DNA of 12,457 nt from contig JAIWOL010000034.1 of NCBI GenBank assembly GCA_020216925.1, positions 1 to 12,457 of the forward strand. Reading direction: 5' to 3'. This document shows, one piece after another, positions 1,625 to 6,777 of this stretch. Each line of letters starts with the position of its first letter. Positions within the stretch are counted from its first letter, which is position 1. The stretch comes from Thiobacillus sp. GTDB lineage: Bacteria; Pseudomonadota; Gammaproteobacteria; Burkholderiales; Thiobacillaceae. A model generated the notes under the pieces. It did not search any database. It saw only the letters and a program-made list of their open reading frames with translations, and had not been told where the DNA came from. The translations under genes and the position numbers were made by a program.

Positions 1625-3387
1625 GCATCCGCGTTCTGCCTGATGTGCTGATTTCGCAGATCGCCGCCGGCGAGGTTATCGAACGTCCTGCCGCCGCGCT
1701 GAAGGAAATTCTCGAAAACAGCCTCGACGCCGGCGCGACCGACATCAGGATCGATCTTGAACAAGGCGGCGTCAAACGGATCCGGGTAGCCGACAACGGC
1801 AGCGGCATCGCGCGCGACCAGCTGATGCTGGCGATGACGCGCCATGCCACCAGCAAGATTGCCAGCCTGGCCGACCTGGAGCAGGTGGCGAGTCTGGGCT
1901 TCAGAGGAGAGGCTTTGGCGTCGATTGCGGCCGTGGCGCGGGTGACTCTGACCAGCCGCTGCGCCGACACCTCGCATGCCTGGTCAGTGACTGTCGAAGG
2001 CGGACGAATGGAAACCCCCATACCGGCAGCGCGAGAAACCGGCACCACGCTCGACGTGCAGGACCTGTTTTTCAACACGCCTGCCCGCCGCAAGTTTCTC
2101 AAAACCGAGGCTACCGAATACGCACATTGTGCCGAGACGGTGCGGCGCGCGGCGTTGGCGCATCCGTCCACAGCCTTCACCCTGAGCCACAACGGCCGCG
2201 TGCAGGCGCGCCATGCCTCGGGAAACGCCGCCGCCCGGATGCGTCAGGTGCTGGGCGAGGCATTCGAGTCGCAGGCCATTGCGGTCGAAGCGGCGGCGGG
2301 CGCACTCAGGGTAAGCGGCTGGGTGATCCGTCCGGCCGCGGCCACGGCGAGCCGGGATAGCCAGCACGTGTTCGTCAACGGGCGTTACGTGCGGGATAAG
2401 CTCATCGTCCACGCGCTGAAGGAAGCTTATAAGGATGTGCTGCATCAGCAGCTGAATCCGGCGTATTGTCTTTTCATCGAAATACCGCCTGATGCGGTGG
2501 ACGTGAACGTGCATCCCGCGAAAACCGAAATCCGCTTCCGCGATGCGCGCAGCGTGCACCAGTTCCTGTTCCATGCGGTCGAGCGTGTGCTGGCCCGTCC
2601 GGCGCAGGTTGGTTCGCAGCCTGCGCCGCTGCAGGCCGACACCGCATATCGCGCGTCCCGGCAGGCAGCCATGCCCCTGCATGTCGACGAGTCCATGGCT
2701 TTCTATGCGCCGCTTGCTGCGGAAGCAAAAGCGCACGCAGGAAATTCCAGCGATCCGCTTGTGCCTGCGCCCCCCGCCTTGCCGGTCGGCGGCCCGGAAG
2801 AGGTTCCTCCGCTGGGGTTTGCGCTGACCCAGTTGCACGGCGTTTATATCCTGGCGGAGAACGCGCAGGGCCTGGTGCTGGTGGACATGCATGCGGCGCA
2901 CGAACGGGTAGTCTACGAAAAGCTCAAAGCGGCGCTCGATGCGCGCGCAGTCCCTGCGCAGACACTCCTGATTCCGGTGGCGCTGACCGCGGACGCGCGC
3001 GACGTGGCCGAGCTTGAACCGCATCTCGCAGCCCTCCGTGACATCGGCTTTGAGCTGTCGATCACCTCGCCGACGTCGGTGGCAGTCCGCGCCGTGCCCT
3101 GGCTGCTGAAAGACGCCGATCCGGTCGAACTTACTCGCAGCCTGCTGCGCGAGGTGGCGGAATTCGGCGTGGCCCGGTTGCTCGCCGAACGACGCAACGA
3201 GCTGCTCGCCACGCTGGCCTGTCACGGCGCGGTGCGCGCCAACCTCCGCCTCACCCTGCCCGAAATGAACGCGCTGCTGCGTGACATGGAGGCCACCGAG
3301 CGCGCCGGGCAGTGCAATCACGGCCGTCCGACCTGGTTCCAGCTTTCGATGCGCGAGCTCGACGCGATGTTCTTGCGCGGACGCTGA
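1621..3387 (+). CDS. mutL: DNA mismatch repair protein MutL, endonuclease type
   Basis: A 588-residue mismatch repair ATPase that links MutS to strand incision. The N-terminal GHKL ATPase shows all motifs: catalytic Glu29 with ENSLDAG (32-38), DNGSG (58-62), RHATSK (74-79) and GFRGEAL (93-99). A transducer domain follows to about 330, then a poor Ala/Pro linker, then a C-terminal dimerisation domain. The C-terminus carries the metal-dependent nicking motif as DMHAAHERVVYE (422-433; family DQHA-x2-E-x4-E with Gln replaced by Met), plus ACHGAVRA (533-540) and CNHGRP (565-570). This MutL should therefore nick DNA itself, as expected where MutH is absent. The start ATG overlaps the hemerythrin stop; there is no strong Shine-Dalgarno, so coupling is likely. 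Length is close to the usual 600. Confidence 0.97.
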   Translation: MSIRVLPDVLISQIAAGEVIERPAAALKEILENSLDAGATDIRIDLEQGGVKRIRVADNGSGIARDQLMLAMTRHATSKIASLADLEQVASLGFRGEALASIAAVARVTLTSRCADTSHAWSVTVEGGRMETPIPAARETGTTLDVQDLFFNTPARRKFLKTEATEYAHCAETVRRAALAHPSTAFTLSHNGRVQARHASGNAAARMRQVLGEAFESQAIAVEAAAGALRVSGWVIRPAAATASRDSQHVFVNGRYVRDKLIVHALKEAYKDVLHQQLNPAYCLFIEIPPDAVDVNVHPAKTEIRFRDARSVHQFLFHAVERVLARPAQVGSQPAPLQADTAYRASRQAAMPLHVDESMAFYAPLAAEAKAHAGNSSDPLVPAPPALPVGGPEEVPPLGFALTQLHGVYILAENAQGLVLVDMHAAHERVVYEKLKAALDARAVPAQTLLIPVALTADARDVAELEPHLAALRDIGFELSITSPTSVAVRAVPWLLKDADPVELTRSLLREVAEFGVARLLAERRNELLATLACHGAVRANLRLTLPEMNALLRDMEATERAGQCNHGRPTWFQLSMRELDAMFLRGR

Positions 3388-3398
3388 AACGGCTCGGC

Positions 3399-3404
3399 TA
3401 TAAT
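3399..3404 (+). promoter_or_regulatory. Consensus -10 box (TATAAT) before the S24-like gene
   Basis: A perfect TATAAT lies 11 bases after the mutL stop and 36 bases before the ATG at 3441. A start site near 3411 would give a leader of about 30 bases. No good -35 stands at 17 bases (CGCGGA there; TTGCGC at 3373 is 20 bases away). The box is the main reason for choosing the short 117-residue form of the next gene, because the longer frame open from 3312 would begin upstream of it. Confidence 0.5.
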
Positions 3405-3440
3405 CCCGACTTCTTTACTCAAGTATTGGCAGGGCGCGTC

Positions 3441-3794
3441 ATGGACGAACGCAAGATCATTCCCATTCAGGACATCAACGAAACCAGCAACTGCGCGGGC
3501 TCGGAGCCGTACGCGCTGATGGTGCTGGGAGATTCCATGCTGCCGGAATTCGAGGAAGGCGAGATCATCGTGGTCGAGCCGTCCGGCCTGGTGAAGGACG
3601 GCTCCTACGTGGTGGCTTTTGTCAACGAGGAATACATTTTCCGGCAGATGGTGAAGCACGAGGACGGCTGGATGCTGAAGCCGCTCAACCCGCTTTATCC
3701 GAATATTCCCATTGCGGACATCGATGTGGCCAAGGGCGTGGTCATCATGAAAAAACGCCCGGGCAAGCGCAGCGAGCAAAAGCGTTACATTTAA
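3441..3794 (+). CDS. Stand-alone S24 (LexA/UmuD C-domain)-like protein, catalytic Lys replaced by Arg
   Basis: A 117-residue protein made only of the S24/S26 fold found at the C-terminus of LexA, UmuD and phage repressors; there is no helix-turn-helix in front of it. Ser32 in LGDSM matches the nucleophile (LexA Ser119, UmuD Ser60). Aligning the DGD-like turn (EEGE, 39-41) and DGSYVVA (53-59) puts Arg68 (in YIFRQM) where the general-base Lys belongs. The protein may thus be peptidase-dead, or a structural or binding module. The C-terminus is very basic (KKRPGKRSEQKR). The frame is open back to 3312 inside mutL, but ATG3441 is preferred because it follows a TATAAT box and starts just before the conserved domain; the Shine-Dalgarno (CAGGG) is weak. 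It could be transcribed alone or by read-through from mutL. Its function is not recognised; a DNA-damage role would be a guess from the fold. Confidence 0.75.
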   Translation: MDERKIIPIQDINETSNCAGSEPYALMVLGDSMLPEFEEGEIIVVEPSGLVKDGSYVVAFVNEEYIFRQMVKHEDGWMLKPLNPLYPNIPIADIDVAKGVVIMKKRPGKRSEQKRYI

Positions 3795-3915: not shown

Positions 3916-3954
3916 GGAGGCATGTTCAACCGCAGTAGCACACAGGAGAGAAAC

Positions 3955-4404
3955 ATGAGTGGACTGATCGCAAATTTCCCGCCCGACGGCGTGGTGACCG
4001 TCAACCGGGTGATTCTCAAGCCGTCGTACACGGTGGACGACCTGCAGGAACGCGTCGCTTTCCTCTGCGAGAACGTGAAGACCTACCATTCCGACACCGG
4101 TTTTGTCGGTGGCTTCGTGGCTTTGAATTCGGGCGCCGTGTCGAACGAAGGCTCAACCATCGGCCAGGCCGTCGAAAGCCCGATGAAAGGCAAAGAAGCG
4201 CTGATCGTGACCTTCTGGACGAGCTTTGAGAATCACGAGAAGTCGCACCGCTCCGAAACCTTCCAGCCGCTGTTCCAGCAGGTGCTGGATCTGTGCGAAA
4301 ACGGCAACGAAGAGATTGCTTACGAAATGCTCTGGTCGGGCAAAGCTTACAGCCCGGAGGAAATCGAGGCGGCACGCAAGGCCAAGGCCAAATACGCGGC
4401 CTGA
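3955..4404 (+). CDS. Small dimeric alpha/beta-barrel protein resembling one domain half of sulfur oxygenase reductase
   Basis: A 149-residue soluble protein without signal peptide; no named gene is recognised with certainty. The start at 3955 is set by AGGAG at 3944-3948 (6 bases before ATG) and by the promoter. The central block, GFVGGF (49-54) then TFWTSFENHEKSHR (86-99), fits the ferredoxin-like/ABM superfamily. Compared with SOR as I remember it (TFW-x5-HEEMHR, then Glu114 in EPIYE), the pattern TFW-x5-HEKSHR is identical in spacing. Glu120 in EIAYE falls where Glu114 would with a two-residue gap. His94, His98 and Glu120 would then be the iron triad, and Cys38, before GFVG, could match the sulfur-binding Cys31 with a three-residue shift. 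SOR is about twice as long, so this would be a mini form. Alternatives are an ordinary ABM-type monooxygenase or an uncharacterised stress protein. Its private promoter suggests regulated expression. Confidence 0.6.
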   Translation: MSGLIANFPPDGVVTVNRVILKPSYTVDDLQERVAFLCENVKTYHSDTGFVGGFVALNSGAVSNEGSTIGQAVESPMKGKEALIVTFWTSFENHEKSHRSETFQPLFQQVLDLCENGNEEIAYEMLWSGKAYSPEEIEAARKAKAKYAA

Positions 4405-4448: not shown

Positions 4449-5411
4449 ATGTCCCATAGCCTGCCACCAGCCGTCTTTCTCATGGGCCCGACCGCGTCGG
4501 GCAAAACCGCGCTTGCTGTGCAACTGGCAGCGTGTCTGCCTCTGGAGTTGATCAGCGTCGATTCGGCACTGGTTTATCGCGGCATGAACATAGGCACGGC
4601 CAAACCCGACCAAGCCACGCTGGCGCGCGTCCCCCACGCCCTGCTGGATATCCGCGATCCGCACCAGACGTATTCCGCCGCCGCGTTTCGCGAGGATGCG
4701 CTCGGCTGCATGGCCGAGATCACCGCGCGTGGCCGCGTGCCGCTGCTGGTCGGGGGAACCATGCTGTATTTTCGCGCGCTGCTCCGGGGGCTGGACGACC
4801 TGCCGCGCGCCGACGCGTCGGTGCGAGCCGGTATCGAGGCGGCCGCGCGCGCGCGCGGCTGGCCGGCGCTGCATGACGAACTGGCCGCAGCCGACCCGCT
4901 GACCGCTGCGCGTCTGTCCCCCAATGATTCACAGCGCATAGGGCGCGCCCTGGAAGTACTGCGTCTGAGTGGGCAGCCCATGTCGGCCCAGCTCGCGCGC
5001 GGCGCCGAAACCTTGCCCTATTCCGTGCTTCAGCTCGCGTTGATTCCTGGCGACCGCGCGGCCTTGCACGAGCGCATTGCCGCGCGCTTCGACGCCATGC
5101 TGGCGGACGGTCTTCTCGATGAAGTGCGGGCTCTGCGTGCACGATACCCGCTCACCGCCGACCTGCCCGCCATGCGTGCCGTCGGCTACCGGCAGGCGTG
5201 GGCATATCTGGACGGCCGCATCGATGCCACGGCGCTGCGTGAACAGGGAAAGGCGGCGACACGACAACTGGCCAAGCGGCAACTCACCTGGCTGCGGTCC
5301 TGGCCGGGGGCGATCATACTGGATAGCCTGGCGGACGATCTGCCGGCGCAGGCGGAAACCCGGGTGCGCCGGTTTCTCGCCCATCCCGCGCACGAGATCA
5401 ATCCGGCGTAG
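4449..5411 (+). CDS. miaA: tRNA dimethylallyltransferase MiaA
   Basis: Transfers dimethylallyl from DMAPP to N6 of A37 in tRNAs that read codons starting with U, which steadies codon-anticodon pairing. The 320-residue length is normal. Visible motifs: P-loop GPTASGKT (13-20), DSALVYRG (38-45, binds the tRNA base), DIRDP (67-71), GGTMLYF (102-108), [16 protein letters not shown] in the middle, AVGYRQAW, and the C-terminal [14 protein letters not shown]. It completes the usual mutL-miaA order, although two genes intervene here. The ATG lies 44 bases after the SOR-like stop and directly behind a -10 box. The 3' end overlaps the convergent xseA by 14 bases, and no hfq gene follows, unlike the enterobacterial order. 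Confidence 0.96.
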
Positions 5412-6777
5412 TCGATACCACTGTTGCCCGCGCGCGTCCGCTGTGAAAACGCAGGCCGATCGTTTCGCCCGGTTTCAGGGCAGATACATCCTGCACTACC
5501 GTACCGTCGGCACGCTGCACCAGGCTGTAGCCACGCGCCAGCACGCGCTGGGGATCGAGATGCGCGAGGCTCGCAGCCAGGCGGTCGAGCGTCAGGGCGC
5601 GCCGGGTCGAGCCGGCGCTGCGCGCACGAACCAGGCGATTTTCCAGCAAGGACAGTCCGTGCTGCTGTGCGCGGATGAGACAGGCGGGGCTGGCAAGCCG
5701 CGCCTGTGCGTTGTCGACCTGTACCTGTCTGCGCTGCTGCTGGGCATGCGCGGCCCGCAGAAGGCGGCCGGACACGAGTTCGAGAGCGGCGCGCCGCAAA
5801 CGCAACTGTTCGGCAGGATGCAGCAGCCGGCGCGAGAGATGATCGAGGCGCTGGCTGGCGTCTTGCACGCTGCGGGTCTGCGCTGCGGCCAGCTGCCGGG
5901 CAAGCGTGGCAAGCTGGCCGAGCAGTTCGTCGCGGTGCGGGCTTGCGAGCTCCGCGGCGGCGGTGGGCGTGGGTGCCCGCAGGTCAGCCGCAAAGTCTGC
6001 CAGCGTGAAGTCGGTTTCATGGCCCACGCCGGACACCACGGGCATCGCTGCAGCGGCGATGGCCCGCACCACGGTTTCCTCGTTGAACGGCCACAAATCT
6101 TCCAGCGAACCGCCCCCGCGCACCACCAGTAACACGTCGCAATCAGCGCGCGCGCTGGCAGTCTGAATCGCGCCCGCAAGCCGGGGGGCCGCGCCGGCCC
6201 CCTGTACCGGCGCGGGATAGAGGATGATGCGCAGGCCCGGCATGCGTCTCGCCAATGCTGTCAGCACGTCGCGCAGGGCGGCTGCCTGCAGGGAGGTGAC
6301 GACACCCAGGGTGCGCGGAAAACGGGGCAGCGCGCGCTTGCGTGCCGCATCGAACAGACCTTCGGACTCCAGTCTGGATTTGAGTCTGAGAAAGGCTTCG
6401 AACAGTTTGCCTGCACCGGCGCGGCGCATCGTCTCGGCGCCCAGCTGGAAATCGCCGCGGGCTTCGTAAAGGGAGGGCAGGGCGCGGATTTTCACGTGAT
6501 CGCCGTTGGCCGGCGTGAAATCGGCGAACTGGTTGCGGCCGCGGAACATCACGCAGCGCACCTGTGCCTGGTCGTCCTTGAGCGAAAAATACCAGTGGCC
6601 CGAAGCGGCGCGGGTGAAGTTGCTGATCTCGCCTTCCACCCACAGCAGCGGCAACTGCGATTCGAGCGCGCGTCGCGCCATGCGGTTGAGTTCGCTCACG
6701 GTGAGCACGGGAGCGGTTTCGGCGGTGTCGAACTGTGTCATGGCGCGAGCATACGGGCAGAGCGGGGCGGCAGTCAT
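5398..6777 (-). CDS. xseA: Exodeoxyribonuclease VII large subunit
   Basis: With XseB (not in this window) it forms the single-strand-specific exonuclease VII, which degrades ssDNA from both ends to acid-soluble oligonucleotides. In order: N-terminal OB fold with [20 protein letters not shown] (about 45-64), catalytic domain with [28 protein letters not shown] (219-234), [13 protein letters not shown] (250-262) and [12 protein letters not shown], then a long Ala/Gln/Arg-rich coiled coil (about 280-400) and a C-terminal LARGYSLV segment. The chosen ATG (459 residues) has GGAG 7 bases ahead. The ATG at 6741 gives a more typical N-terminal length (447) but has no Shine-Dalgarno, so it remains possible. 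It is the only minus-strand gene in the window, convergent with miaA and divergent from exbB. Confidence 0.95.

Follow-up and report, generated by a model that had tools for sequence, protein, structure and literature searches.

Sulfur oxygenase reductase (SOR) is a 24-subunit hollow sphere that carries out the O2-dependent formation of sulfite, thiosulfate and sulfide. Known SORs belong to the PF07682 and NF047630 families, with examples in Acidianus, Sulfurisphaera and Thioalkalivibrio paradoxus, and they are about 310 residues long (313–329 in the sequences compared here) and consist of two fused halves. We describe a 149-residue protein encoded in a 12,457-nucleotide stretch of DNA from Thiobacillus sp. 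(contig JAIWOL010000034.1; the whole stretch is referred to as the window). Its open reading frame (ORF), at 3955–4404, is genuine, and the product is a member of a highly conserved family that we name mini-SOR. Judged by sequence comparison, mini-SOR is a sister family of SOR that is homologous to the SOR N-terminal half and keeps its active-site residues, but is without the C-terminal half.

Excerpts of PMC7398979 give His86, His90 and Glu114 as the iron ligands of SOR and Cys31 as essential; the H86A, H90A, E114A and C31A mutants have no activity, and C101A/C104A retain about a tenth (PMC7398979). The sequence-only reading had claimed that the window protein holds the same residues in the same order and at nearly the same spacing, and this is borne out. 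T86-F-W88-x5-H94-E95-x2-H98-R, E120-x2-Y123-E124 and C38 ahead of G49-F-V-G are all present; the W-x5-H-x3-H spacing is the same in mini-SOR and in a Thioalkalivibrio-type SOR (locus L183), the second His is 22 residues from the Glu in mini-SOR and 24 in the L183 SOR, and the Cys is 11 and 8 residues, respectively, from the GF motif. C38, H94, H98 and E120 align as the equivalents of Cys31, His86, His90 and Glu114, such that the SOR Cys and His/His/Glu set appears intact, although this numbering rests on motif order and a match to SOR 6m35, and the aligned SORs differ in length. All four residues are unchanged in 62 of 62 aligned mini-SOR sequences (9 type A, 20 type B and 33 viral), as are N17, W88 and E95. 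In family alignment A1, comprising 52 of 78 distinct homologue sequences, 21 columns are invariant and include C38, W88, H94, E95, H98 and E120, indicating that the motifs of the window protein are more than chance; E120 is the invariant glutamate and falls on the SOR ligand, and E124 varies. When eight mini-SORs are aligned, without forcing, with four SOR N-halves, twelve columns are invariant (M1, N17, C38, F50, G60, T86, W88, H94, E95, H98, F103 and E120). In the region of SOR Cys101 and Cys104, mini-SOR has one cysteine instead of two (C114, in 57 of the 62 sequences).

Profile searches, proposed earlier as a check, favour SOR when made with the family profile; the window protein on its own gives no significant match. 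Alone, it scores 12.5 bits with PF07682 (E 0.066; curated cut-off 25 bits) and 15.1 bits with NF047630 (E 0.0087; curated cut-off 400 bits), and against PDB sequences SOR appears at E 0.21, behind unrelated matches. The best PDB match of the A1 profile is SOR 6m35 (E 1.2e-5, profile 14–133 against residues 6–127), an alignment that pairs E120 with the SOR glutamate. Another eight distinct SOR sequences match at E below 0.07, and a further two at values of up to 0.29; several of these are variants of a single enzyme. Triosephosphate isomerase, the first unrelated group (E 0.015), ranks ahead of several weaker SOR rows. PF07682 is matched by 39 of the 52 A1 members (best 1.1e-4), the ABM model, which had been raised as an alternative, by fewer (18, best 0.005), and a Monooxy_af470-like model by nine (best 9.8e-4). 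With hhalign, the family aligns to the N-half of six SORs from Thioalkalivibrio genomes (E 1.5e-6, probability 90), E120 being unpaired in that alignment. The family profile scores SOR N-halves at 8.6–17.8 bits (five sequences, two types), C-halves at no more than 2.2 bits, and 29 ORFs of nine ABM loci at no more than 5.4 bits, below all SOR N-halves. The SOR sequences came from four of ten genomes searched, all four labelled Thioalkalivibrio. No SOR family match exceeded the cut-off in 299 genomes of the phylum, and a weak match in that search (L058) is a mini-SOR. Because its length is half that of SOR, the C-half is absent and the scores lie under the curated cut-offs, we rejected mini-SOR as an SOR equivalog and do not file it as SOR.

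A second SOR-like family was also seen (L186:1453–2391, L187:1477–2418 and L185:3–782), with proteins of 313–314 residues that are 33–34% identical to the first Thioalkalivibrio SOR and score nearer to mini-SOR than the first does; both SOR types co-occur in two genomes.

Mini-SORs are of two types, type A of about 149 residues with 66–95% identity to the window protein, and type B of about 130 residues with 32–44% identity. Relatives are present in 33 of 59 other genomes of a kinship sample (31 of 35 in the same genus), in 55 of 273 class genomes with the window's own genome excluded, and in 8 of 299 genomes of a wider sample with it included, five of these carriers lying outside the class. 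There are at least 572 relatives among named loci, of which we kept 80; their hosts include Thiobacillus, Thioalkalivibrio, Sulfuriferula, Sedimenticola, Thiohalophilus, Thiogranum, Thiohalobacter and Candidatus Thiodiazotropha, many are labelled by broad group only, and one is labelled Rhizobium. The mini-SOR of this Rhizobium-named metagenome-assembled genome (locus L126) is 85% identical to that of the window, and its contig is possibly mis-binned.

Unlike known SORs, mini-SOR is carried by many rDsr/Sox bacteria and on viral contigs, and in the genome samples tested its carriers are limited to genomes with dsrA or soxB. One or both are present in all 55 class-sample carriers (strong dsrA in 49, strong soxB in 50), using cut-offs of E <1e-30 for dsrA and <1e-100 for soxB that were set after the tables had been seen; three carriers (G126, G190 and G255) have partial gene matches only. 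Among non-carriers, 70 of 218 have dsrA and/or soxB (Fisher P 5.6e-23 against carriers, kinship not corrected), and none of the 148 class genomes with neither gene carries mini-SOR. The association is not reciprocal, mini-SOR being missing from 44 of 93 dsrA genomes in the class sample. For eight carriers outside both the window's genus and the class sample, dsrA is over the cut-off in all eight and soxB in seven. Two carriers (L083 and L084; genomes G201 and G314) are only 1.0–1.1 Mb, both with dsrA, and may be reduced symbionts. A reaction centre was found in just 5 of 274 genomes, none of them a carrier or in the strong dsrA list, and phototrophy is uninformative on O2 dependence.

The features of the window are listed in Table 1. 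The ATG at 3955 is preferred to an in-frame ATG at 3922; homologue frames, with starts picked by a rule of our own, also have a Met near there. The window is a housekeeping region with genes for an amidase, a hemerythrin-like protein, an S24 protein, xseA, exbB, exbD, GGDEF, Trm112-like, kdsB-like and adk, together with mutL and miaA assigned by eye, and no sulfur gene adjoins mini-SOR in it. The S24-like protein sits between mutL and mini-SOR, and ORFs similar by eye cluster in 13 named loci; a by-eye miaA-like ORF forms a cluster of 17 loci near mini-SOR. The hemerythrin-domain protein (1082–1624) lies between the amidase and mutL genes with a four-base overlap with each.

Table 1. Mini-SOR, its key codons and its flanking genes in the window.
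Feature	Position	Strand	Remark
Upstream neighbour, peptidase S24-like protein	3312..3794	+	overlaps mutL in its 5' part; start position uncertain
AGGAG, probable ribosome-binding site for ATG 3955	3944..3948	+	six bases ahead of ATG
mini-SOR gene	3955..4404	+	ORF, 149 residues plus stop
N17 codon	4003..4005	+	invariant in mini-SOR family and SOR N-halves
C38 codon	4066..4068	+	aligned with SOR Cys31
W88 codon	4216..4218	+	invariant
H94 codon	4234..4236	+	aligned with SOR iron ligand His86
H98 codon	4246..4248	+	aligned with SOR iron ligand His90
C114 codon	4294..4296	+	Cys in 57/62; region of two further SOR cysteines
E120 codon	4312..4314	+	aligned with SOR iron ligand Glu114, also in 6m35 profile match
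Downstream neighbour, miaA-like gene	4449..5411	+	name by eye

Elsewhere the neighbours vary. Neighbour genes were simple longest-ORF picks that include antisense artefacts, and the downstream scan covered 45 of 64 picks outside Thiobacillus-like loci, with likely artefacts dropped by eye. The commonest downstream family is ATP sulfurylase (sat), the next gene for 6 of the 45 scanned proteins; locus L151 has the order mini-SOR, sat, aprB, aprA, and in locus L093 sat, aprB and aprA lie downstream of mini-SOR with other ORFs between. This linkage places mini-SOR at some loci beside the sulfite-to-sulfate route. No sulfur theme is seen among bacterial type B neighbours (34 of 38 picks scanned).

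Type B mini-SORs are also carried by 39 IMG/VR contigs (L206–L244), many of which are near-identical to each other. Our tree places the viral sequences with type B (support 100/100); the tree labels need four changes, none of 200 bootstrap trees gave one, and the starred branches force no more than one. The phage matches near viral mini-SOR, in a listing of the first 25 of 70 families, include a single-strand DNA binding protein, baseplate hub, tail protein, helicase loader and DnaB-like helicase, from a scan of 97 of 164 ORFs at nine loci in which phage genes were not assigned to individual contigs; in locus L210 a Pfam gp32 gene is 1.4 kb from mini-SOR. A DsrC-family gene is present in 9 of the 39 viral mini-SOR stretches, in five of them 125 bases upstream, and PF04358 was found in the three tested. 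Two more viral contigs (L227/L278 and L228/L279, paired by contig name) carry one elsewhere, giving 11 of 39 contigs overall with a DsrC/TusE-like gene, several being near-copies, and in the reverse search mini-SOR was found in 7 of 80 stretches around viral dsrC-like genes. The viral DsrC-like proteins inspected have at most one terminal cysteine motif; most phage DsrC has the second cysteine motif only and may act as TusE, according to portions of PMC8190135. Viral mini-SOR is a candidate viral sulfur gene, comparable in its viral-contig location, and at some loci its adjoining dsrC/tusE-like gene, to the viral auxiliary genes dsrA, dsrC/tusE, soxC, soxD and soxYZ listed there; that list, in the portions available, has no SOR-type enzyme, and 'sulfur oxygenase' occurs 0 times in the main text (PMC8190135). 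The window protein had no match among plasmids or INPHARED phages; one viral copy likewise had none in INPHARED, and PHROGs matched neither the window protein nor any of four viral copies.

At two viral loci other genes lie close by. In L234, mini-SOR is flanked by an iron-sulfur cluster biosynthesis-like gene and by the gene for a weakly Rieske-like protein (E 0.025), at L234:4179–4499 and 5352–6390, with one small ORF intervening on the upstream side; in L233, a Mom-like DNA modification gene (L233:4411–4977) stands immediately before mini-SOR.

We think it probable, on balance, that mini-SOR works as a homodimer of non-fused chains, an SOR-type sulfur oxygenase with non-heme iron that makes sulfite in the cytoplasm. 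The monomer is predicted (pLDDT 90.8) to fold as a ferredoxin-like half-barrel of ABM type, and two chains, each contributing one half-barrel, would build the barrel that SOR forms from its fused halves. In the model, H94 and H98 lie in helix 91–98, E120 in strand 119–124 and C38 in helix 27–45; given a suitable site geometry, H94, H98 and E120 would bind mononuclear non-heme iron, one site per chain, and C38, with C114, would accept sulfane sulfur as a persulfide, perhaps handed over by a carrier of the DsrC/TusE type or by a small persulfide. The iron site with O2 would then oxygenate the bound sulfur to sulfite, which would feed AprBA and Sat in parallel with rDsr or Sox. The location is taken to be cytoplasmic because no signal peptide was seen by eye (rather than computed) in the window protein. 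Without the SOR sphere, mini-SOR would more probably work on sulfur bound to soluble carriers than on the solid element.

An alternative, which we consider unlikely, is that mini-SOR is a non-catalytic or regulatory sulfur protein, with a site for iron or a persulfide, that serves the Dsr/Apr pathway as a sulfur sensor or carrier. The gene is small, stands alone at many loci and on viral contigs lies near dsrC-like carrier-type genes, and portions of PMC8190135 describe known viral sulfur genes as mostly carriers rather than enzymes. A carrier, however, would not require the SOR catalytic set that is kept in 62 of 62 sequences, and a length of 149 residues would seem to leave no room for a further domain.

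The predicted ABM-type fold alone cannot tell SOR apart from other members of the ABM superfamily, and the main structural rival is a heme-type site, since N17, W88 and H98 are similar to the triad Asn6, Trp66 and His76 of IsdI (PMC4835899, in part). Mini-SOR would then be an IsdG-like ABM protein with a heme-degrading site at these residues, its resemblance to SOR reflecting shared superfamily ancestry. IsdI and IsdG are among the best Foldseek matches (15–22% identity), in a comparison by order and spacing the three residues occur in the same order, with N17 invariant and the IsdI W–H spacing of 10 equal to that of W88–H98, and a heme-oxygenase model is weakly matched by 6 of 52 A1 members (best E 0.0044). 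The W–H pattern is nonetheless not specific to IsdG-like proteins, as SORs share the spacing (W97–H107 in L183), and the SOR model does better than the heme-oxygenase model, with 31 of 52 members and a best E of 1.4e-5. An IsdG-like protein would also leave the invariant C38, H94 and E120 unexplained, and fits poorly with the sulfur-related distribution and with some sulfur-related neighbours; we regard it as quite unlikely. It is highly improbable that mini-SOR is a conventional ABM monooxygenase or cyclase that needs no cofactor and turns over an organic substrate: it resembles the dimeric alpha+beta barrels of this superfamily (SnoaB, YgiN, LsrG and others) in size, predicted fold and likely dimer, and SnoaB and RslO4 are the best structural matches of the mini-SOR models, but the SOR-set residues are invariant, the gene co-occurs with sulfur markers, W/Y/F-x5-H-x3-H is in none of the 29 ORFs of the nine ABM loci (the ABM protein among these not being singled out), and the window protein has no PF03992 (ABM) match at E up to 10. 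SOR was not among the matches listed in one fold search, which is no evidence against SOR.

Within the preferred interpretation of mini-SOR as an SOR-type oxygenase, we tentatively suggest a more specific version, possible rather than probable, in which this non-duplicated form of SOR is a cytoplasmic homodimeric iron oxygenase acting on DsrC/TusE-bound sulfur, providing an O2-dependent sulfite route beside DsrAB, and is carried by phages with dsrC to drive sulfur oxidation in the infected host. Our searches of the open-licence literature, including the portions available of PMC7398979, PMC6382920, PMC12998232, PMC8190135, PMC4835899 and PMC13047784, found no account of the mini-SOR family. 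The question can be put to a direct test in Thiobacillus, and mini-SOR, which occurs in sulfur-oxidizing bacteria and on viral DNA, may represent an overlooked step in the sulfur oxidation of these microbes.
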